A stretch of DNA of 24,955 bases from a virus: IMG/VR virus record IMGVR_UViG_3300011116_000677, positions 1-24,955 of that record; one strand, given 5' to 3'. A program made the translations under genes and the position numbers. How positions within the stretch are numbered: position 1 is the stretch's first letter; each line of letters starts with the position of its first letter. Below are positions 11,424 to 24,599 of the stretch, in pieces. A model generated the notes under the pieces. The model was not told the origin of the DNA. It saw only the letters and a list, made by a program, of their open reading frames with translations, and searched no databases.

Positions 11424-12620
11424 ATGGAACTCATCGTCAAAATAGGAGCAGACCAGCAAGGATTGAGCGACACCATCAACCGGATCACTCAGCAATTCAA
11501 GACCATGAACACGTCGATGCCGCAGGCTTGGGGGGCTCAGTCGGCAGCGGTCAAGCAATACGGAAGCGTTGTTCAAACCTCGGCAGCAACAGGTGGAATG
11601 GATAAGCTTGCAGAGACCATCGGCAAGATCTCTCCAGTGGCCGGGGAGCTTATGGGTAAGTTTTCTGGGATGCTGGGGCCTATTGGCGCGCTTTCAGCCG
11701 GACTCGGAGCGCTGGCGGGACTGGCCACCGCAGCCGGCAACAAGATGGTGGAAGCATCGGCGTTATCTCGCCAGTCTCGTATCACGGGCGCAAGCGCCGG
11801 AATGCTCAAGACATTCGGACGCGCTGCGGAGCTGGCTGGAGTTGATAAAGATTCCGCTTTCAATGCGCTAAACCGATTCAACGCCAAAGCCGGCGCATTC
11901 AACCAAGGTGACGCAGAAGCTCAAAAGCTGTTTGGTGAACTCGGAATAAATCCATCCGGACAAAACGTCGACGACACATTGATGCAGGTCAAACAGCAGT
12001 TCGGAGGAATCACCGACCCAGCCAAGCGCGCCAGGCTGAGCAAGGGGCTTTTCGGGCGTGGCGGATTTGAGATGTCGGAAACATTTTCAAAGATGGATTC
12101 GGCCAAAAGCGGAAACTTCTTTGAAGGTCGAGACATCGAGGACATGGCCGCTGCTCGGAAAAAATCAAAGTCATTTTTCAACAAGGTGGGAATCATGTTT
12201 GACGACATCACCACCATGTTCACATCAGACGTGGTCCGAATGCTGGGGATGAATAAAGGCGCAAGAAAAGGAACATCTATTGGCGGCGGAGCATCTCAGA
12301 CCATCGGAGAAGAAGCCGATTCAACGGTCAGCCTTAACGATACGAAACAAAAGTTTGACGCCGTAGCAGGCGGCGGAAAGTTGACAAAAAATTACAAGTG
12401 GAAAGACGGATCAATCCACGACACCAAAGAGCCTAAGGAGCGTTTCAAACAAGACCGACAATCCATGCCGTTCGATTTTGACGCCATGGGCCAAGTCGGT
12501 CTGTTCACTGGATCGTCTTTGGCGTATTCGGGCGGAAACGACACCGCTCAGCAGCAGATTGATCTGCTAACCGGCATCCGCGACAACACTGCCAGACTGG
12601 GCGAAGGAGACTTCAAATGA
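11424..12620 (+). CDS. Tape measure protein (short)
   Basis: The 398-residue protein shows tape-measure features: an N-terminal helical region rich in Q, A and S (QQGLSDTINRITQQFK), a glycine/alanine hydrophobic stretch at about 82-105 (GMLGPIGALSAGLGALAG), and a conserved-looking motif (TGASAGMLKTFGRAAELAGV) common in phage tape measures. A second part contains a lysine- and glycine-rich region. A good Shine-Dalgarno (AGGAG at 11414-11418) precedes the ATG. If the usual proportion of about 0.15 nm per residue holds, the tail would be about 60 nm, much shorter than lambda's. The stop overlaps the next ATG. Confidence 0.8.
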   Translation: MELIVKIGADQQGLSDTINRITQQFKTMNTSMPQAWGAQSAAVKQYGSVVQTSAATGGMDKLAETIGKISPVAGELMGKFSGMLGPIGALSAGLGALAGLATAAGNKMVEASALSRQSRITGASAGMLKTFGRAAELAGVDKDSAFNALNRFNAKAGAFNQGDAEAQKLFGELGINPSGQNVDDTLMQVKQQFGGITDPAKRARLSKGLFGRGGFEMSETFSKMDSAKSGNFFEGRDIEDMAAARKKSKSFFNKVGIMFDDITTMFTSDVVRMLGMNKGARKGTSIGGGASQTIGEEADSTVSLNDTKQKFDAVAGGGKLTKNYKWKDGSIHDTKEPKERFKQDRQSMPFDFDAMGQVGLFTGSSLAYSGGNDTAQQQIDLLTGIRDNTARLGEGDFK

Positions 12621-14002: not shown

Positions 14003-14443
14003 ATGAAAACTCTAATCTCAATACTCCTGCTCTGCGCGCTCAGCGCGTCGGCTCAATACCGATACACTTTATATTCTTCGAGCATATCGACGAACGATTA
14101 TATCGCTACGAACTCTTACACAACCTACAACACGGCGTTCGCGGTTTCCGCTGGAAGTTCGGCTCAGATCCAGCTCGCGTTCAAGATGGCGACCAACGAT
14201 TACCCGCGCTTTGCCACCAACGACATCATCACCACATGGCAATCGAGCATGGACGGAAGCCGATACACCAATCAGTTTCAGTTCACTTTGAAATCGACGG
14301 CCACGGCCACCAACACCGAAGTCTGGGGTCTGACTAACTTCAGTGTCACTTATCCCTGGCTAAAGCTCATCAGCATATCAAACTTGAATCAATCAAGGCT
14401 TACAAATCACTCCATCAAAGTAGGCCAAAAGACTGGCATTTGA
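14003..14443 (+). CDS. Secreted-type TN-rich tail-locus protein
   Basis: The 146-residue protein starts with a classic Sec signal peptide: MKTLISILLLCALSASAQ, with likely cleavage after ASA. The mature part is beta-prone and rich in Thr-Asn pairs (ISTNDYIATNS, MATNDYPRFATND, TNTEVWGLTN). It lies between tail genes in the same operon and ends three bases before the next gene. Signal peptides are not expected for phage tail proteins, which assemble in the cytoplasm. It may be a periplasmic or surface protein made during infection, or a tail component with an unusual hydrophobic N-terminus. Function unknown. Confidence 0.7.
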   Translation: MKTLISILLLCALSASAQYRYTLYSSSISTNDYIATNSYTTYNTAFAVSAGSSAQIQLAFKMATNDYPRFATNDIITTWQSSMDGSRYTNQFQFTLKSTATATNTEVWGLTNFSVTYPWLKLISISNLNQSRLTNHSIKVGQKTGI

Positions 14444-14446
14444 TTT

Positions 14447-14752
14447 ATGGGCTGCTGTGGGCAATCTAAAGAAATGCCGTCACTCGCCAGACAGGGCGCG
14501 AACGCAATGTCTGCGATTGGCCGGGTCACCGCCTCGTTTATAAACGAGAAGCCCGTGTTCGCCAAAGAGGAAACCGTGGCCGCTCGCCGCGCAATTTGCC
14601 TTGCGTGTCCTGAGTGCGTTCCGCATCCTCCGAACCAAAACGAGACTCACCGCTGCCGCAAGTGCGGCTGTTGGCTTGACGCCAAGCTTCTTTCAAAGCT
14701 AAAGCTCGCTCCCGAGGTTTGTCCGCTCAACAAATGGGGGGCTGAGTTATGA
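14447..14752 (+). CDS. Small cysteine-rich zinc-binding-type protein
   Basis: The 101-residue protein has a cysteine cluster in its C-terminal half: C51, C54, C57, C70, C73, C75 and C92, within CLACPEC, RCRKCGCW and VCPLNKW. This CxxC-type pattern with a terminal CPxxKW fits a zinc-ribbon small protein that I recall near phage tail genes. An N-terminal CC pair occurs at residues 3-4. The start is preceded by GATTT. The stop overlaps the ATG of the large cysteine-rich tail protein (ATGA), so the two are probably co-translated. A role in folding or assembly of the large protein is a guess. Confidence 0.7.
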   Translation: MGCCGQSKEMPSLARQGANAMSAIGRVTASFINEKPVFAKEETVAARRAICLACPECVPHPPNQNETHRCRKCGCWLDAKLLSKLKLAPEVCPLNKWGAEL

Positions 14753-17421
14753 CGATCGGTGGTTGCTGTTGCGCCTGCAAAGAGAAAGAGGTTGAGGTTG
14801 ACGAGTTTGAAAACGTCACCGAGGTCTTGAGCTACGACGGCGCGTCTACAATCCCGCCTTACGCTCGTGAATCGTCAGACTGCGGATACCCTACGGCCTG
14901 CGGCACTCCGGGAACTCAGCCTGCCTGCGATACGATGGGATTCGATTACTCAATCCTACAAGAACCGTGGGAGGTCAGCGGCATCCTGGGCGGTTCTGCT
15001 GGCGCTGGCGCAACTGTTGATAAGGTTGAAAACAATTACTATTCAAAAACGGGAGCAAAGGCAACGGTAGGAAATCCGTGCGGATACGGCTGGAAAGGAG
15101 TTCAGGCGAAGGCTGTCTGGTGCGGCGTTCCGGGATTTGGCGCGGAAGAATGTTGCAATTCAGCAGGCCAGCAGCAGGTGCGGTATCTCACAAGGACCAC
15201 AACTCAGACGATGTGGTATAGGGTCACCCAGAAACAGGAAATTTCGGGCACGCCTTGCAGCGGCGACCTCGCTTGGGAGGACGTGGTGTTATACAACCAG
15301 CTCAACATCACGCTTGTTGAAAACGTCGATGTTTTCGGAAATATATCGAGTACAAAAAGTGTTAAGTATGTAGCTTCGCAAACCGGCGGCGGCGCTTACT
15401 CGACTGAATCTTGCGACGAAGAGTCGTGGGGGACTGGTCCAGGTTCAAGCGGCTGCAAATACGCCAGCACCGCAATAGGAACAGTTCCGCTTTATAGGAA
15501 CGCCCCTTTCACCGCATCCTGCGGAATTATCACCTGGGGTTGCGGAACGGATGAGGTCGTAGGGACTCCTGGTGAAATTAACGACCTTAACAAGTGGGCT
15601 CCCCTATCTACAACGTCTGATTCAAACCCGTGTTTTTGCGGAGACACTGGCCCAGGCGTTGGCCCAGACGTCGTAGTCATGACATCAACGGGATCGCCGC
15701 TTGTAGTTTCTTTATCTAATATAAAAATAACCGCATCTTACTCAGGTGATACAATTTTCACAAGAAGCGGAGGATGCAAAGACACTCCGCAAGGAGTATA
15801 TTTAAGATACGAGCATTTCTTCGAAAAGACCGTCGTCCTTTCGGGTGAGAATCCATACTCAAACGTGATTGAGGATGTAAAATATCTCCTCAGCCAATGG
15901 GATTTGACTGACCACAAACTCTACCCGTGGCGCACGGACAGCAATACGTGGCAGATGCCAATCGTGTCGAGGGACGCGGCGGCAGCCGGTCCAGGCTCGG
16001 GTTCATTTGACGTGGTCACCTGCGAGATGATACCGACGCCGCCTCAATACTCTGGCGACATTCGTGGCGCTCCGCTGCCGGGGGGCGGATACGGAAAATA
16101 CTACAATTTTTTTCACAAGAATCATTACGGCGACACGGCCGGCGGTTATTGCGCGAGCTGCCTTGATTCCATTGGAGCTTCAAACCCGCTTGATGCCGCC
16201 GCAACTCAATGGACGACTCTCGAAGAGGGGGTGCAGATGTTCGGTCCGGGAGCGTGGCTTATAGACTTTGAGATTACGGGCTACTTCTCACCGTCTGGCG
16301 GCGGGCCGCAAGATGGAGGAAGCGTTGTAATCGCTCAGAAGTGGGCTGAAACCCTTGAGGCGTGGCCACGCGCATCCTCAATCCGTCCCTGCGGTCGAGA
16401 TAGGTATTTGTTTGATGAAGCCAACGTAGGGTGCGTAGCGTCGTGGGACGGCACTACTGTGGTGCTAGACCTTCCCGTTGCGCTCAGCGGCACGGTGGTC
16501 ATGGGCAGCACGCTCTACACGGTGACAGGCGGCAGCGGCAGCACATACACTCTAGTCAGTCAATCGATCACATCTCCCGTGCCGTGCGACGGCATAGCAA
16601 ACCTGAGATATCCAACGGCACGCGGCATCTGTGGACGACTCGCGGCCACGGCGGTTCAGACATCTCCGGGAGTTGTCACAATCACAACGGCAGCGAACTA
16701 CCTCCGCACCGGAGACACGGTGACGGTGGCTGGCATCGGCGGCATCACCGGCGGCACAGTCACCGTCATCAATTCCACCTCGTTCACGCTTTCCGGCACG
16801 GTGACAACGCCGCTGACCGGGTGGGTTCACAACGTCGGCATCACGTCAGCCACCTGGGACTTGGAACAACCGTGTTCGGAGCATAAGTATGTCGTCGCAA
16901 CCGCGCAGAGCGACCTACGGAATGCTGGCAACGTGGACTACACTTTCACAGATGACACGCTCGAGCCGACAAAGAGTTATCCGTCGGTGCTGTATTGCAC
17001 TCCAAATGGGGAGTCATTCCCGCACGGCAAATCGTATCCATTTGGAAACATCGAGAGCGATATTTGCTACGGTTCTTACTGGGGTCTGATTTTCTATCAA
17101 GCGGTGGCCGACCCGTATTGGCAGCAGCCTCATGTCCCTTGCGATTATGCCGGTGGAGGTTGGACGATGACCGACGACCCCTGCGGAACACCGACCGCCA
17201 ATACTTACCCATTCCCGCCGCTCGTCGAGCCTTCGGTCGGCATATCCACATTGCCAGCGACATTTGGCGGAGGCGGATACACGGATTGCTACACTCCATA
17301 CAGCCGCGCCACGGCTCACTTTTATAGAGCGGCGTGGTTGGCTTGTAACGATATCCCGCCGGGCTGTTCATCTGGAGGATCAGTTGTTCTTGCCAGCGGA
17401 ATCAACCTCTCTGGCAGTTGA
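14749..17421 (+). CDS. Large cysteine-rich tail protein
   Basis: The 890-residue protein begins GGCCCACKEKE and carries over 30 cysteines spread along its length (NPCFCGD, GYCASCLD, LACNDIPPGC), together with many Gly, Ser, Thr and Tyr. Residues about 635-690 form a beta module (VVTITTAANYLRTGDTVTV, GITGGTVTVINSTSFTLSGT) that matches the ubiquitin-activating E1 FCCH-like repeat often present in phage fibre or tip proteins. A related strand set lies at about 563-605. It probably forms part of the tail tip or a side fibre. No signal peptide is visible. The rest is unrecognised. The next gene starts 15 bases later from a GTG. Confidence 0.65.
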   Translation: MTIGGCCCACKEKEVEVDEFENVTEVLSYDGASTIPPYARESSDCGYPTACGTPGTQPACDTMGFDYSILQEPWEVSGILGGSAGAGATVDKVENNYYSKTGAKATVGNPCGYGWKGVQAKAVWCGVPGFGAEECCNSAGQQQVRYLTRTTTQTMWYRVTQKQEISGTPCSGDLAWEDVVLYNQLNITLVENVDVFGNISSTKSVKYVASQTGGGAYSTESCDEESWGTGPGSSGCKYASTAIGTVPLYRNAPFTASCGIITWGCGTDEVVGTPGEINDLNKWAPLSTTSDSNPCFCGDTGPGVGPDVVVMTSTGSPLVVSLSNIKITASYSGDTIFTRSGGCKDTPQGVYLRYEHFFEKTVVLSGENPYSNVIEDVKYLLSQWDLTDHKLYPWRTDSNTWQMPIVSRDAAAAGPGSGSFDVVTCEMIPTPPQYSGDIRGAPLPGGGYGKYYNFFHKNHYGDTAGGYCASCLDSIGASNPLDAAATQWTTLEEGVQMFGPGAWLIDFEITGYFSPSGGGPQDGGSVVIAQKWAETLEAWPRASSIRPCGRDRYLFDEANVGCVASWDGTTVVLDLPVALSGTVVMGSTLYTVTGGSGSTYTLVSQSITSPVPCDGIANLRYPTARGICGRLAATAVQTSPGVVTITTAANYLRTGDTVTVAGIGGITGGTVTVINSTSFTLSGTVTTPLTGWVHNVGITSATWDLEQPCSEHKYVVATAQSDLRNAGNVDYTFTDDTLEPTKSYPSVLYCTPNGESFPHGKSYPFGNIESDICYGSYWGLIFYQAVADPYWQQPHVPCDYAGGGWTMTDDPCGTPTANTYPFPPLVEPSVGISTLPATFGGGGYTDCYTPYSRATAHFYRAAWLACNDIPPGCSSGGSVVLASGINLSGS

Positions 17422-17436
17422 CACCGTGCCACTAGT

Positions 17437-17799
17437 GTGGCCAGAGAAATCACTTACAGCGCAATAATCAACGCCGTCAAGAGTGGAGCGTCCGTTCAGC
17501 ACTCCATTTCAAAAACGTCAGACATGACGGGCGACGACATGATCAAATCAACCCAGCTCATCGGGACGACCGCCGAGCTTCTGACGTTTGACGAAATATC
17601 AGGACCTCCACAACTCCTACTCATCGTCAACCTGGACACGGCCAACTATATCGAGGTGGATGCCGTCTCCGGAATGACCAGCTTTCCACAAAAAGTCACA
17701 TTTGGGGACTTCGTTTTACTCAGGCCGCAAACAGCCAGCATTTACGCAAAAGCCAACACCGCTGCCGTCCGCATCTTGAAAGTTGCCATCGAAGCATGA
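17437..17799 (+). CDS. Small beta-rich tail protein
   Basis: The 120-residue protein is beta-prone (PPQLLLIVNLDTANYIEVD, QKVTFGDFVLLRPQ, AAVRILKVAIEA), soluble, and resembles a jelly-roll or trimer module. It starts at GTG (17437), with no ATG nearby giving a comparable product and no ribosome site. The stop overlaps the ATG of the large fibre gene (ATGA). Likely a tail tip or fibre accessory; family not recognised. Confidence 0.65.
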   Translation: MAREITYSAIINAVKSGASVQHSISKTSDMTGDDMIKSTQLIGTTAELLTFDEISGPPQLLLIVNLDTANYIEVDAVSGMTSFPQKVTFGDFVLLRPQTASIYAKANTAAVRILKVAIEA

Positions 17800-20780
17800 A
17801 AAAGCTCATCTCACTTCTTTTGTTTCTATCCATTGCCGCTTTTGCGGCTGACGTTCGCTGGACCTTTGTAGACTTTACCAGCAGTCCACAGTCGGTAAAG
17901 AAGGTCTATATCACTCCCATTGCGGCCTACGGCACAAACTCCACCAACATCGTCACCGGAGATCGCAGGACCTATACTAACAACAGCTCAGGATCGCTCA
18001 TCGTCAGCAACGTCATCGTGGGTCGCTCCTACCGCGTAGAGCTTCAAGGACCATTCACCGAAACGGTCATCACCAACAGCTTTGACTCGAGTGTAAGCGG
18101 ATTTGTGGAGGCAGTCAGTTACATCAGCGCACCACTCAGCGATGGCGGACTGTCTTCCTATTCTAAGACAGCAGCAGATGCTAGATTCCACAACGTGTCT
18201 GGAGACACAAGCACAAACGCAGCTTTCCGAGGCACGTTCAAAATACCAGCTGGCGCAACTGTTGGCTATGTTCTTACAGCTACAAATGCGGATGGCAGCG
18301 CATCATGGCAGGTGGCCAGCGCCGGCACATCCGGCGCACTGACAAACAACGACACGCGAGGCATAACATTTCTAAACGGATTAACGGTTCAGAATAATCT
18401 TGAGGTTTCTAGTATTTCTTCAGGAACAGGGAATCTCTCGCTGTCCCCAGAAGCATCCGGCAACGTCGTGATTAGTGTTGGTCAACTGGTCGGCAACGGC
18501 GGCGGACTGACCAACCTTACCGGCTCTGGCTCATCCATCGCCGCTGGCACAAACATAGTCACCGTCACCAATGGCTCTCTAGTGACCGTCCACGGAACGG
18601 CAAACGTCACCCAAGCAGGATTGGCGGCGGGGAGTTATGCAATCAACGGAATGCTGGTTGATGCTGATGCTGGGCTGTATTTGTCAGCAGTGGGTAGGAC
18701 TAACAGTCAATTTGCCAATCGTGCAAACGGTGGCTTTATGGCTCTCAAGCAGTTCAACCTCTGGACAAACCTCATTGATGGAGCAGTTCTTGGAACAAAC
18801 TTAAACTTGTCTGGAAGCTACTGGCGCACGTTCAAGCTGAACTACGGCACGAACGTGAACAATCCAACGGTATTGGATTACGGATTGCAATTTGACGGAA
18901 CAAGTCGCGCCTACGTCCGAAACCTCTCGGACATGCGGACGAATACAATTCTCGTTTGCTACCAGTCGATTGGAAACTTTGATGTCACCGCGACCAACGC
19001 CATCTTTGCTGCTCAAAATTCATCAAGCTCAAATAACTCAGTTGCGGTGTTTGTTTATCCATATACTGGATCTCCAATTTATCTCGCTCCACCACTTAAT
19101 CATTTTGTCGGCGCAAACATCTCGGCAGGTCAAGCAACGTCAAACAATTTTACGGCGTTCACAGGTGCGGCAGTGAGCGGAAGGCACATGGACGAGCATT
19201 ATATTTCTATCGGCGTTTCTAACCTTTCGCGCACGGCAACAATTGACGGTTATGGTGCGCCATTAGCCGACACAACTTTTTCTTTCAACAGCTCAATCAC
19301 TTCTTTCAACTTGGCCGACTTTCAAGCGGGAGATTCTGGAGTAGATACAACAGGAATGTTTAAAGGGAAAATTAAGTCGTTTTTGATTTTCAACAAAATG
19401 CTTTCAACGAACGAGGTTCGACAAGCCATGACCGCGCTTCGATGGTTCGATGTTCGTGAGGAAAACGTAATCTTCATTGGAGACTCATTAAGCAACGCCT
19501 ATGACGATCCGTATGAGTCTGGCACATACGCAACAAACAACTGGCCTTGGTTGTGGATGAACAACTCGGCCAACTCAAACAGGTTCTTTTATCGCAACTG
19601 GGGAAAAGGCGGACTCAGCATCGGTCAACATGATGCTGCGGACTATTCAAACAAGGTTCACGCATTCAAACCGGGCGGCCCAGTGAAGCGCACACGTCTG
19701 ATGTATTGGCTTGGAGCCAATGACGTGCTTCAAAACTCTGGCGATGCAAACTGGGCGTCACCGCTTGCGTTGGCAATTCAATCGTGGGATTTGGCAAGCA
19801 AGAACGGCTTCCAAGTTGAGGTGTTAAACATACCAACAATGACAAACTCCTTTGGCGGACAGGTCACAAACAACACCTTTCGCCTTGGACTTAACCGTTC
19901 TTTCGAAACCAACTCAGGTTTCTACTCAAAGCTTTGGGACATTGACTCGCTTGCCCCATTCAGAAACACAAATTCAACATACAGCGTTGACGGCACACAC
20001 GGCACTTATGCTTACCACAAAGTCATTGCGGATTATCTGACAAGCGGCCAGATCAGTTCGACTGGCGCACTTTATAGAGCTCGCGGTTCTATCATTGCTG
20101 ACGCATTTGTGGGTGATGGAACAATGATAAATATCGGAGAGGACGTTGCTTTTGTGAGAGATGATTTCTTTAGCGGAATTTCAACCTCTGCAAATGGCGA
20201 CTTGAACTGGCAACCAACCGGAACGGTAACAACTCGCAACACGGTCTACGACACAGGCAGATGGGGAGTGCTGTCTCTGGAAAGTGCAGCAACGTCCGGC
20301 ACTGCTGGGCAGATATATCTCAGCGCAGCAGGAGGAGGATATTTAGGCACGCTGCCGCTGGCAACTGTCGTGCCGTGGCGAGCGAAGTTCATTATTCGTC
20401 CTACAAATACAAATGCTGTCGCAAACGTGGTTGGATTTTCAGTTCCTAGCGCAGCGTGGGGTGCGACCACTCACGGCATTTACGTTCGAGCAGATGACAC
20501 GATGGACGGCAGCAATTGGAAGTTCATCACCCGAGGCGCGGGAGGCGCTACGACCAACGACACGGGAGTTGTTGCTAGAACTAACAGCTTTGTAAAGTTT
20601 GAGTTTTATAGCGTTACAGCTGGGTCTGTGATGCTTCGGGTGGATGGCGGCAACTGGATTACAAACAGCACGACCATGCCAGGCAACGTGTCCCCTATAT
20701 TTTCCATCGTCCCGCGTGAAAACGTCGCCAAAACCAATGCGATAGACTTCTTTGAGTTCGTCGCATGGCCTGACCGATGA
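17796..20780 (+). CDS. Tail fibre with LamG-like, SGNH hydrolase and lectin-like domains
   Basis: The 994-residue protein starts with a Sec-type signal (MKKLISLLLFLSIAAFAAD). Residues 122-138 (YSKTAADARFHNVSGDT) match a motif of phage fibre proteins, and 233-241 (GNGGGLTNL) another motif frequent in Verrucomicrobia. Residues about 340-555 resemble a LamG/concanavalin domain (LQFDGTSRAYV ... KIKSFLIFNKMLS). Residues about 556-745 form an SGNH hydrolase: GDSL at 562-565 with nucleophile S564, GAND at 640-643, and DGTH at 732-735 with D732 and H735. The end (about 790-994) is beta-rich and lectin-like. It likely binds and de-esterifies cell-surface glycans. Confidence 0.85.
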   Translation: MKKLISLLLFLSIAAFAADVRWTFVDFTSSPQSVKKVYITPIAAYGTNSTNIVTGDRRTYTNNSSGSLIVSNVIVGRSYRVELQGPFTETVITNSFDSSVSGFVEAVSYISAPLSDGGLSSYSKTAADARFHNVSGDTSTNAAFRGTFKIPAGATVGYVLTATNADGSASWQVASAGTSGALTNNDTRGITFLNGLTVQNNLEVSSISSGTGNLSLSPEASGNVVISVGQLVGNGGGLTNLTGSGSSIAAGTNIVTVTNGSLVTVHGTANVTQAGLAAGSYAINGMLVDADAGLYLSAVGRTNSQFANRANGGFMALKQFNLWTNLIDGAVLGTNLNLSGSYWRTFKLNYGTNVNNPTVLDYGLQFDGTSRAYVRNLSDMRTNTILVCYQSIGNFDVTATNAIFAAQNSSSSNNSVAVFVYPYTGSPIYLAPPLNHFVGANISAGQATSNNFTAFTGAAVSGRHMDEHYISIGVSNLSRTATIDGYGAPLADTTFSFNSSITSFNLADFQAGDSGVDTTGMFKGKIKSFLIFNKMLSTNEVRQAMTALRWFDVREENVIFIGDSLSNAYDDPYESGTYATNNWPWLWMNNSANSNRFFYRNWGKGGLSIGQHDAADYSNKVHAFKPGGPVKRTRLMYWLGANDVLQNSGDANWASPLALAIQSWDLASKNGFQVEVLNIPTMTNSFGGQVTNNTFRLGLNRSFETNSGFYSKLWDIDSLAPFRNTNSTYSVDGTHGTYAYHKVIADYLTSGQISSTGALYRARGSIIADAFVGDGTMINIGEDVAFVRDDFFSGISTSANGDLNWQPTGTVTTRNTVYDTGRWGVLSLESAATSGTAGQIYLSAAGGGYLGTLPLATVVPWRAKFIIRPTNTNAVANVVGFSVPSAAWGATTHGIYVRADDTMDGSNWKFITRGAGGATTNDTGVVARTNSFVKFEFYSVTAGSVMLRVDGGNWITNSTTMPGNVSPIFSIVPRENVAKTNAIDFFEFVAWPDR

Positions 20781-21247
20781 GCATGACCACACAACCCAAA
20801 ATTATCAGGGTTGCCGCCATATTGTTGATCTCAACGATATGGTCTCACTCCGCGCAGGTCGTGCCGGGTGTCAAAATGGTAACAGCGTCTAGCCTTGCGC
20901 TTCCTGTGTCGATTGTGACGTTCAAGCAAACGGTTTTAACATGGGACAACCCACTCGGCGCATCTAATCGCGTTGCGTGGGGTGGAGCGAGACATAGTTG
21001 GACAAACAGCGCGTCAGTCAGCACAAACCAATTCAACGTCACGAACGGAGTCTGCTACTGCGTCACGGCCATCGTCAACGGAATTGAAAGCATCCCCGCG
21101 CTCTGGCCGTCCAATCGGTTTGATAGGGTCATCGTTCAAACCTCAACTAATCTTTTGACGTGGCAGGATGCGTTCACATGGACAACCAACTTCAACAAGC
21201 CGCAGGAGTATTTAAGGCTCAGAAGTGAACTAATTAGGTGGGAATAA
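20777..21247 (+). CDS. Secreted-type protein with FN3-like fold
   Basis: The 156-residue protein overlaps the fibre stop by ATGA. After 8 residues comes a hydrophobic segment (IIRVAAILLISTIWSHSAQ, about 9-27), a probable signal peptide or membrane anchor. The rest is beta-rich and looks FN3-like (VSIVTFKQTVLTWDNP, CYCVTAIVNGIES). The end contains VIVQTSTNLLTWQDA and EYLRLRSE, a pattern I associate with Verrucomicrobia secreted proteins. It may accompany the fibre, or be a surface protein changing phage adsorption. Function not established. Confidence 0.65.
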   Translation: MSMTTQPKIIRVAAILLISTIWSHSAQVVPGVKMVTASSLALPVSIVTFKQTVLTWDNPLGASNRVAWGGARHSWTNSASVSTNQFNVTNGVCYCVTAIVNGIESIPALWPSNRFDRVIVQTSTNLLTWQDAFTWTTNFNKPQEYLRLRSELIRWE

Positions 21248-21562: not shown

Positions 21563-21763
21563 ATGAGTGCATCGTGGAGAACAACATTATTCGGAGTCGG
21601 CGGAATCGTGACCGTCGTGGCGGCAGCCTGCAACGCACTGTTCGATGGCAACCCAGCCACCAACCCTGACTGGACTAGCGTTATCGCGTCAATCAGCGCT
21701 TGCGTTGGTTTGCTATTCGCTCGCGACAATGTCGTGACCAGCGAGCAATCAGGAGCAAAGTGA
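21563..21763 (+). CDS. Putative holin
   Basis: The 66-residue protein has two membrane-prone segments (about 6-25, RTTLFGVGGIVTVVAAA, and 37-53, WTSVIASISACVGLLFA), joined by a short DGNPATNPDW loop, with a polar charged tail. It resembles a common small phage protein with the DG-PATNPDW loop found beside lysis genes. A holin makes the membrane holes that release the endolysin. AAGGA at 21547-21551 precedes the ATG, with an A-rich spacer. Its stop overlaps the next start (GTGA). Confidence 0.7.
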   Translation: MSASWRTTLFGVGGIVTVVAAACNALFDGNPATNPDWTSVIASISACVGLLFARDNVVTSEQSGAK

Positions 21764-21939
21764 CTTGGGGATGGATAAAACCATTACTGGAGGCGCTGCT
21801 GGCATTCCTAGAGAAGAAGGCCAGCGCGCCTCAAACAATTGTTGATGCAAACACTCCTCCAAGTATTCGTGACCGTTGGGCTGCTAGCCTGCGCGAGCGG
21901 TTGCGTGACAAGGGTGGTAGTTCTGGACAGTCAAAGTGA
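21760..21939 (+). CDS. Small lysis-cluster protein
   Basis: A GTG at 21760 overlaps the holin stop and has an AGGAG at 21751-21755, giving 59 residues (MTWGWIKPLLEALLAF...). The N-terminal 20 residues are hydrophobic/amphipathic and the C-terminus is basic and polar (RDRWAASLRERLRDKG). The lipoprotein gene begins inside it at 21845 in another frame, an arrangement reminiscent of Rz/Rz1 spanins. No clear single transmembrane helix of inner spanins is visible, so the inner-spanin role is uncertain. Confidence 0.55.
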   Translation: MTWGWIKPLLEALLAFLEKKASAPQTIVDANTPPSIRDRWAASLRERLRDKGGSSGQSK

Positions 21940-22060
21940 TGTCGTGCGTCTAGGGTCAAATGTGCGCGGAGACGTCTATGTCTGGGACAACGGAGCATGG
22001 GCAAAAAAAGGAAAAGTCACCCTGCCAGAGGGTTGGTATGCCGGGCCGCCTCCAAAATGA
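21845..22060 (+). CDS. Small lipoprotein, outer-spanin-like
   Basis: The 71-residue protein starts at ATG 21845 (MQTLLQVFVTVGLLACASGC). The lipobox ASGC places the lipidated cysteine at residue 20, leaving a mature peptide of 52 residues. The remainder (RLGSNVRGDVYVWDNGAW, VTLPEGWYAGPPP) matches a repeated pattern in small phage lipoproteins from lysis regions. It overlaps the preceding gene by 95 bp in a different frame, and its stop overlaps the next ATG. It may be the outer-membrane half of the host envelope disruption system. A lipoprotein destined for the outer membrane suits a Gram-negative host. Confidence 0.65.
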   Translation: MQTLLQVFVTVGLLACASGCVTRVVVLDSQSDVVRLGSNVRGDVYVWDNGAWAKKGKVTLPEGWYAGPPPK

Positions 22061-23734: not shown

Positions 23735-24042
23735 CTGCCACGCGCGATGCCAATTACTTCAGGCTTGCGATGCGACAGAGCCGAGCCAAGCGCATAAACC
23801 AAGCCTGCGCGTGCAGCCAGAAGGCTTTCAAGCTCGACTCCGAAGGCGCTCCGGTCTGCTGGCGTTGTAACGAGATTGAGACGCATCGCTTCATTTGGCG
23901 CGAAAACCTTCACGCGCTCTCGATGATTAAGCCTGAGGCGGCCAAGCCAGTTCCCGCTTTTGAACGGTTCTGCGTGTCCATACGCGACACGGCTCACTTC
24001 CTAATCATCCGCGCTCACGGCCTTTACGTTTATCACTTATGA
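23731..24042 (+). CDS. Small zinc-finger-like protein
   Basis: The 103-residue protein is basic at its N-terminus (MRQSRAKRINQ) and has four cysteines in a CxC-14-CxxC arrangement (C26, C28, C43, C46) within NQACACSQKAF and PVCWRCNEIE. This suggests a zinc finger, possibly binding nucleic acid. The C-terminal part (RFCVSIRDTAHFLII) is beta-prone. It overlaps the next start by ATGA. Confidence 0.65.
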   Translation: MTATRDANYFRLAMRQSRAKRINQACACSQKAFKLDSEGAPVCWRCNEIETHRFIWRENLHALSMIKPEAAKPVPAFERFCVSIRDTAHFLIIRAHGLYVYHL

Positions 24043-24599
24043 CCAACACACAAATCACAATCATGCTTTCCGAAGCTCCCGGCATTGTCGCCAGGGCTGA
24101 GGCTAAGGGGTGGATCAAGCGACATTATGCCAATGCTGGAACTCAGATTCCCATAAAGGGTGTCAGGAAGTTCAGCAAGGCGCACAAATCGAACGTGGCC
24201 ACTGGGGTTCGCAAGGGCCACGCCGCGCGGCTCAAGGCGCTGGCGGCGATGATTACGCTCTGCGCCTTCCAGTCGTTCGGAGCGATTGACGACTCGAAGG
24301 CAGTTCGCGCAATCGTGGGTGAGGCGGCGAATCAAGGTCGCTCTGGAATGCTCGCGGTGGCGGGGGCTATTCGGAATCGCGGAAGCCTTAAGGGTGTCTA
24401 TGGCGTCAAGAATCCAGCCGCAGACAAACAACCCTCTTGGGTATGGCAACGGGCGCGTGAGGCGTGGGCGATGTCTGCTACCAATGACATCACCCATGCA
24501 GCTACCCACTGGGAGAACACAAAGGCATTTGGAAAACCTTACTGGGCTAAGTCGCTGACCGTCACGACCAACATCGGAAGCCACACGTTCTACAAATGA
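24039..24599 (+). CDS. Endolysin, SleB-type cell wall hydrolase
   Basis: The C-terminal domain (about 84-186) is of the SleB/CwlJ cell wall hydrolase family: VGEAANQGRSGMLAVAG with likely catalytic E95, IRNRGSLKGVYGV, THWEN and SHTFYK, which is the usual end. It would cut host peptidoglycan glycan strands. Residues 64-82 (RLKALAAMITLCAFQSFGA) form a hydrophobic stretch that resembles a signal or signal-arrest-release helix, preceded by a basic region. Residues 1-60 are an extra basic domain (GWIKRHYANAGTQIP, FSKAHKSN) not usual in SleB proteins. It lies 2 kb after the holin. Confidence 0.85.
   Translation: MTNTQITIMLSEAPGIVARAEAKGWIKRHYANAGTQIPIKGVRKFSKAHKSNVATGVRKGHAARLKALAAMITLCAFQSFGAIDDSKAVRAIVGEAANQGRSGMLAVAGAIRNRGSLKGVYGVKNPAADKQPSWVWQRAREAWAMSATNDITHAATHWENTKAFGKPYWAKSLTVTTNIGSHTFYK

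Follow-up and report, generated by a model that had tools for sequence, protein, structure and literature searches.

Predicted Sec signal peptides on three tail-locus proteins of an uncultivated phage and a possible export route for tail fibres

Three genes in the tail locus of the uncultivated-virus record IMGVR_UViG_3300011116_000677 encode proteins, here named SP1, SP2 and SP3, that are strongly predicted from their sequences to carry Sec signal peptides and to be exported. We analyzed the whole stretch of 24,955 bases of this record, which we call the window, together with related phages in environmental sequence data, whose loci or records are given as L-numbers. In the textbook account the virions of tailed phages are put together wholly in the cytoplasm, and the ordinary fibres of these phages have no export signals and are assembled there, whereas here a Sec signal peptide precedes the protein. 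We favour, with evenly balanced confidence, the reading that SP1–SP3 are tail-tip or fibre components which are made as Sec pre-proteins, exported, and docked on the virion outside the cytoplasm. The signal peptides, their recurrence on fibre genes and the separation of the fibre from a BppU-like anchor in relatives are all strongly predicted. The features on which the argument turns are the following.

11424–12620, plus strand: tape measure protein (phrog_2276, E=2.8e-9), which marks the tail module.
14003–14443, plus strand: SP1, a Thr/Asn-rich protein of 146 amino acids (aa) with a predicted Sec signal peptide at 14003–14053 (signal rule, shuffles, conservation in the relative L002).
14749–17421, plus strand: tail-locus protein of 890 aa, cysteine-rich (34 Cys), without a signal peptide (open reading frame and signal scan).
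17437–17799, plus strand: tail protein of 120 aa without a signal peptide, overlapping the SP2 start by 4 bases (homology).
17796–20780, plus strand: SP2, a tail-fibre/tailspike-like protein of 994 aa with a predicted signal at 17796–17846, a conserved N-terminal module at 17847–18314 and a variable C-terminus.
19473–20030, plus strand: predicted SGNH/GDSL hydrolase domain within SP2 (PF13472 and catalytic blocks).
20777–21247, plus strand: SP3, a protein of 156 aa with a probable Sec signal peptide at 20777–20854 (...IWSHSA/QVVPG), the weakest of the three (L002 orthologue).

The sequence-only reading had noticed hydrophobic starts of signal-peptide type on three genes of this locus. Indeed, the three open reading frames (ORFs) begin at 14003, 17796 and 20777 with the N-termini it gave, the starts are of the Sec/signal peptidase I type, and the MK-LIS-LL pattern common to SP1 and SP2 as well as the ASA/AFA ends were seen as described. 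Our rule asks for a basic n-region, an uncharged hydrophobic core and small residues at −3 and −1, all at the true N-terminus, and it called only these three among the 34 window ORFs picked. The predicted signals and cleavage points are MKTLISILLLCALSASA/QYRY for SP1, MKKLISLLLFLSIAAFA/ADVRW for SP2 and MSMTTQPKIIRVAAILLISTIWSHSA/QVVPG for SP3. None of 83 distinct N-termini of core proteins (terminase, portal, protease, capsid and a few other core homologues of relatives) and none of 90 internal methionines was called. SP1 and SP2 also pass a stricter rule, which lets through 5 of 20,000 shuffles of each (about 1 in 4,000), while 2–4% of the shuffled versions of SP1, SP2 and SP3 pass a loose rule. 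The mature regions had been described as Thr-Asn-rich, and this holds: Thr plus Asn make up 24% of mature SP1, 19% of mature SP2 and 19% of mature SP3, compared with 11–16% in the capsid, tape measure and other tail proteins. Upstream of the three starts we saw no clear Shine-Dalgarno site.

An informative comparison comes from L002, a close relative for the tail module that retains signals on all three proteins. Its tail genes are mostly 87–96% identical to those of the window (SP3 64%), and its capsid protein is only 51% identical; the head and tail modules therefore have different histories. Judged by these identities, the modules have been exchanged, and the signal genes apparently moved with the tail. 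In SP1, which is 90% identical overall, three codons of the signal are changed, all from hydrophobic to hydrophobic, next to eight silent changes. SP3 of L002 has a quite different signal, MTHAFSIISALLLCASAVHSA, in front of an unchanged HSA/QVVPG junction, and it is because of this different N-terminus with the same junction that we regard the SP3 signal as supported. From this comparison it is strongly predicted that the signals are conserved as signals and not as sequences.

To see how far the pattern extends, we gathered 80 loci whose capsid proteins are related and read on into the tail regions of 20 records; all fibre starts cited here were re-read by hand, as automatic ORF picks in relatives rich in G and C include wrong frames. 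A search for the same signal beside tail genes of metagenomic phages had been proposed, and signal-bearing fibres were found in at least ten relatives. Within the capsid-relative set these are L002, L003, L004, L018/L019/L020/L036, L055, L056, L086 (the record of L053) and L098 (the record of L039), and further examples are L113–L117, L168–L172 and L177. Many relatives have fibres without signals, for example L007, L013, L022, L026, L051, L059, L063 and L070. Pfam gives the signal-bearing fibre of L018 a tailspike domain of the pectate-lyase type (PF12708, E=1.4e-10). The fibre gene of L113 is followed by one for a laminin-G protein (PF13385, E=5e-23) that resembles virion structural proteins; most signal-bearing fibres of relatives show no Pfam enzyme domain. 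The sequence-only reading had offered export of fibre-like proteins, an envelope-associated assembly step or host capture as possible meanings. The first two fit the evidence well: fibres of relatives, a pectate-lyase-type tailspike and a laminin-G-type protein all carry signals, and the signals vary together with the fibre/baseplate-anchor split described below.

The third of these possibilities, that the genes were captured from the host and merely retain their signal peptides without a phage function, is very improbable and largely contradicted. The Thr/Asn-rich mature regions would suit it, as would the frequency of secreted proteins in the probable hosts. Against this, the signals have persisted while the sequences diverged, the three genes stay together as a block with the tail module (64–96% identical, compared with 51% for the capsid), and it is phage tail and virion proteins that the mature domains in relatives resemble. 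Another way to avoid export would be to read the hydrophobic N-termini not as Sec signals but as virion packing or membrane-inserting segments, for example plugs fixing the fibre to the tip of the tail. Hydrophobic segments do occur in tail-tip and tape measure proteins. We consider this reading improbable, given that the basic n-region, the hydrophobic core and the A-x-A site are all present, that the segments stay hydrophobic and retain the cleavage junction even as the core residues themselves change freely, and that several unrelated proteins of one locus bear such N-termini. Additionally, the predicted cleavage point of the L004 fibre coincides with the start of a signal-less homologue in L055 (A/TTVTG vs M-TTVTG).

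Two further records show signal-like starts in series. In L148 (4516–11297), an otherwise different phage, up to five consecutive genes after the capsid region have such starts (three by the rule and two by eye), and the first of them shares the fibre repeats. In L178 (2967–6121), several signal-peptide genes follow a giant fibre, in a phage whose structural genes are different and apparently of the myovirus type. The capsid ORFs L056:8045–9370 and L106:9842–11155 begin ahead of the usual capsid start and have hydrophobic segments in this extension; the apparent capsid signals were set aside on account of it.

The relatives also indicate what such fibres might dock to. A fibre search found the same fibre repeats both behind ordinary N-termini and behind signal peptides. 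In L113 and L114 a signal-less protein of 186 aa is followed by a signal-bearing fibre, while L091 (from the phage that also gave L167) has a signal-less fibre of 743 aa to which a domain with 63% identity to this protein is fused. In L092 (from the phage that also gave L173) the fused domain has 38% identity, and the C-terminal head of the signal-less fibre of 855 aa is about 62% identical to the heads of the split, signal-bearing fibres. A scan for the anchor gave nine loci. In seven the anchor stands alone, and a signal-bearing fibre comes next in 7 of 7; in the other two (L167 and L173) it is fused, and a signal-bearing fibre is absent in 2 of 2. Fisher's test of this table gives p=0.03, or p=0.015 with three more distant split cases, values that are indicative only as the set contains near-duplicate loci. 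The next gene in L113 begins MKTLSHIIAIIWLAAACPALG/FIINPFRF, and its positional counterpart in the fused L173 begins MNLVNPFRF, with no signal.

The two ends that would have to meet are both conserved in the split relatives. A scan with the fibre N-terminus gave 16 loci with about 11 distinct fibres, and 15 of the loci were read by script. In all 15 the signal stands directly before a conserved mature start, QT[VI]GQ[YFW]E (QTVGQYELRKR...), and the signals in front of it are greatly different in sequence. The anchor encoded upstream ends in the tail GxVxHxxLNxGEPPA in 14 of the 15 and in a related tail in the fifteenth. An AlphaFold model of the anchor, of good confidence (predicted local distance difference test, pLDDT, 79), has a BppU domain protein as its best match in BFVD (E=1.3e-6), and the 80alpha baseplate (PDB 6v8i) is among its weaker PDB matches (E=3e-3). 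From this model the anchor of the relatives is predicted to be a small stand-alone BppU-like baseplate protein. It thus matches in predicted fold the upper baseplate proteins of siphophages such as 80alpha, but differs from them in that the split relatives have a stand-alone domain with a new C-terminal tail and a separate fibre predicted to be exported.

In the window, the largest of the three proteins is SP2. It matches PF13472 with E=3.5e-4 in Pfam, below the curated cut-off of the family. The SGNH blocks can be followed along the gene as GDS at 19479, a block-II-like NWGKGG at 19596, GAND at 19713 and DGTH at 19989, and the catalytic positions 562 (Ser of GDS), 640 (Asn of GxND) and 732 (Asp/His of DxxH) are all present, so that the C-terminal half of SP2 holds a complete predicted SGNH-esterase active site. 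In L002 the counterpart has 682 aa; the signal is unchanged, residues 14–173 are 91% identical, and the remainder is replaced by a C-terminus that has no relation to the SGNH region. An N-terminus that stays the same in front of an exchanged C-terminus reads as the modularity typical of tail fibres and tailspikes, and tailspikes and fibres of tailed phages (pectate-lyase, SGNH, laminin-G and repeat types) share this modularity, the tail-operon location and the domains seen in the relatives. Other searches gave less. SP1, SP2 and SP3 have no significant match in PHROG, whereas signal-bearing fibres of relatives do match known fibre or tailspike families; Pfam found no enzyme domain in SP1 and SP3; phmmer of SP2 against PDB returned nothing useful; and tblastn of SP2, the L018 tailspike and the anchor of the relatives against isolated phages gave no matches. 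A single-sequence AlphaFold model of SP2 residues 350–795 had a pLDDT of 32 and was not used, and homology of the N-terminal module of SP2 to the domain of L004 and L055 was not supported (hhalign probability 1.3%).

An exported enzyme also brings in the main rival to fibre docking, namely that the fibre-like proteins are exported but are not parts of the virion. They could coat or modify the surface of the infected cell, much as surface proteins of other phages do, and thereby mask receptors or remove polysaccharide substituents, which would block superinfection or stop progeny from adsorbing to debris. Lambda lom, a signal-peptide gene inside the tail-fibre locus that encodes an outer-membrane barrel, is a precedent for an exported protein in a tail locus. 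The predicted SGNH active site of SP2 would serve such a role, and five Q-rule signal-peptide genes of Porphyromonas gingivalis phages have been read as possible outer-membrane modifiers (PMC10367356). We nevertheless think this unlikely, though it deserves more weight than any other alternative to docking: the signal sits on fibre genes of the tail operon, the same C-terminal head occurs on a virion-type fibre in the fused phages, and the conserved BppU-like anchor, whose type of C-terminal tail goes with the mature fibre start, points to docking. The SGNH domain could alternatively belong to a lysis or envelope-degrading enzyme that weakens the envelope from the periplasm; gp40 of Xanthomonas phage PBR31, a signal-peptide esterase, was suggested to aid lysis (PMC10975493). 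This is a shade less probable even than the plug reading, as L002 retains the signal and the N-terminal module with a C-terminus unrelated to the SGNH part, and as SP1, SP3 and most signal-bearing fibres of relatives have no Pfam enzyme domain.

Each of these known systems resembles the window in part only. Lambda lom, which we liken by description only, likewise has a signal-peptide gene in a tail-fibre locus, but its product is a barrel and not a fibre. The P. gingivalis phage genes likewise encode Sec signals, many of them followed by Gln as mature residue 1, but they belong to Bacteroidota phages and are described as of unknown function, and they are linked neither to fibres nor to a separation of anchor and fibre; the same paper mentions signal peptides on capsids of these phages (PMC10367356). 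PBR31 gp40 likewise has a signal peptide on an esterase similar to tail hydrolases, but it is a single case read as a lysis aid (PMC10975493).

Gln at +1 after cleavage is the Q-rule of Bacteroidetes (PMC5837995, PMC10653852). In our phages Gln directly follows the predicted cut in 16 of 26 signals passing one rule, compared with 6 of 39 (15%) in a Verrucomicrobiota genome sample; homologues are present among the phage signals, and the rule used misses some accepted ones. Examples are the window genes at 14003 and 20777, L056, L018, L113 and L168. We treat this enrichment as a lead and not as a result. The idea that it simply follows the hosts' own rule is unsupported, given the 15% in the sample of the associated phylum (the hosts are not certain). 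The association itself comes from binning: the L086 phage matches, with 99.7–100% identity along extended segments, a contig from the bin of a Verrucomicrobiaceae metagenome-assembled genome; at its fibre locus this contig has another fibre, whose signal peptide, MKRILLALLALAAPAAA/QVSGD, also differs. Such binning is weak evidence for linking several of these phages to Verrucomicrobiota. A search of 388 Verrucomicrobiota genomes with the L114 fibre gave one weak match only.

We infer export, cleavage and docking of SP1–SP3 on the virion, and Sec export of fibres that later dock is proposed because the signals are divergent yet physically conserved, the cleavage point of the L004 fibre matches the start of its signal-less homologue in L055, and the anchor and fibre ends are matched. 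During infection the host Sec translocon would export SP1–SP3 and signal peptidase I would cleave the pre-proteins, which would then fold once in the periplasm or further out, with the fibre forming an oligomer. The cytoplasm would remain the usual assembly site of head and tail, the signal-less tail-tip proteins included. Lysis would bring the exported fibre parts and the virions together, and docking would complete the host-recognition apparatus outside the cytoplasm. In the window, the product of 17437–17799 or that of 14749–17421 is a possible docking candidate, the latter as a possible virion-side partner.

Several points weigh against this reading. An exported fibre needs a route to the virions after lysis, and we know of no precedent in tailed phages. 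The BppU-type anchor was not found in the window, where the neighbouring 17437–17799 belongs to a different family. There are just two fused-anchor loci, and several of the loci compared are near-duplicates. The N-terminal domain of the L004 fibre stands alone without a signal in L055 and L018, and because of this the picture of a signal-less anchor with a signal-bearing fibre is not universal. Finally, the signals were called with a heuristic rule of our own and not with SignalP, with thresholds slightly different between scans, and SP3 fails the strict rule and passes only the looser one, as do 4% of its own shuffles.

Elsewhere in the window, profile searches found genes for a terminase, portal, head maturation protease, major capsid protein and tape measure protein, and the virus is therefore a tailed phage and, by its gene set, probably a siphophage. 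The major capsid protein is phrog_283, and the capsids of relatives are annotated as P22-coat-5-like. SP1, SP2 and SP3 all lie downstream of the tape measure gene, in the same tail module. Homologues of the 120-aa protein adjoin fibre genes, signal-bearing or not, in L004, L063, L070, L034 and L045. The 34 cysteines of the 14749–17421 product are unusual for a tail protein assembled in the cytoplasm. Further downstream, a short lipoprotein-like ORF (21839–22060, ..GLLACASGC) near a putative holin (21563–21763) is a candidate spanin, and its L002 copy has a clearer lipobox. A putative endolysin (24039–24599; PF07486-like, E=4e-4, below the cut-off) has an internal hydrophobic stretch, KALAAMITLCAFQSFGA, before its catalytic part, placed as if a shorter product could also be exported.

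In summary, we propose somewhat tentatively, with a confidence just short of even, that a widespread class of tailed phages, several of them associated with Verrucomicrobiota, splits its fibres from the baseplate anchor and exports them through Sec, as an alternative route of virion assembly. Sec signals, fibres and BppU anchors are each of a known kind; what appears to be new is how they are combined and the assembly route that this implies, and in the open-licence literature we found no description that connects tail fibres with signal peptides. Should fibres be exported and join the virion at a later point, new particles would become able to bind a host only on release. Such fibres could also fold or acquire disulfides while in the periplasm, and they could be shared or exchanged between phages of one community. 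Signal peptides on fibre genes would moreover be an easy marker in metagenomes for such phages and their receptor-binding proteins.

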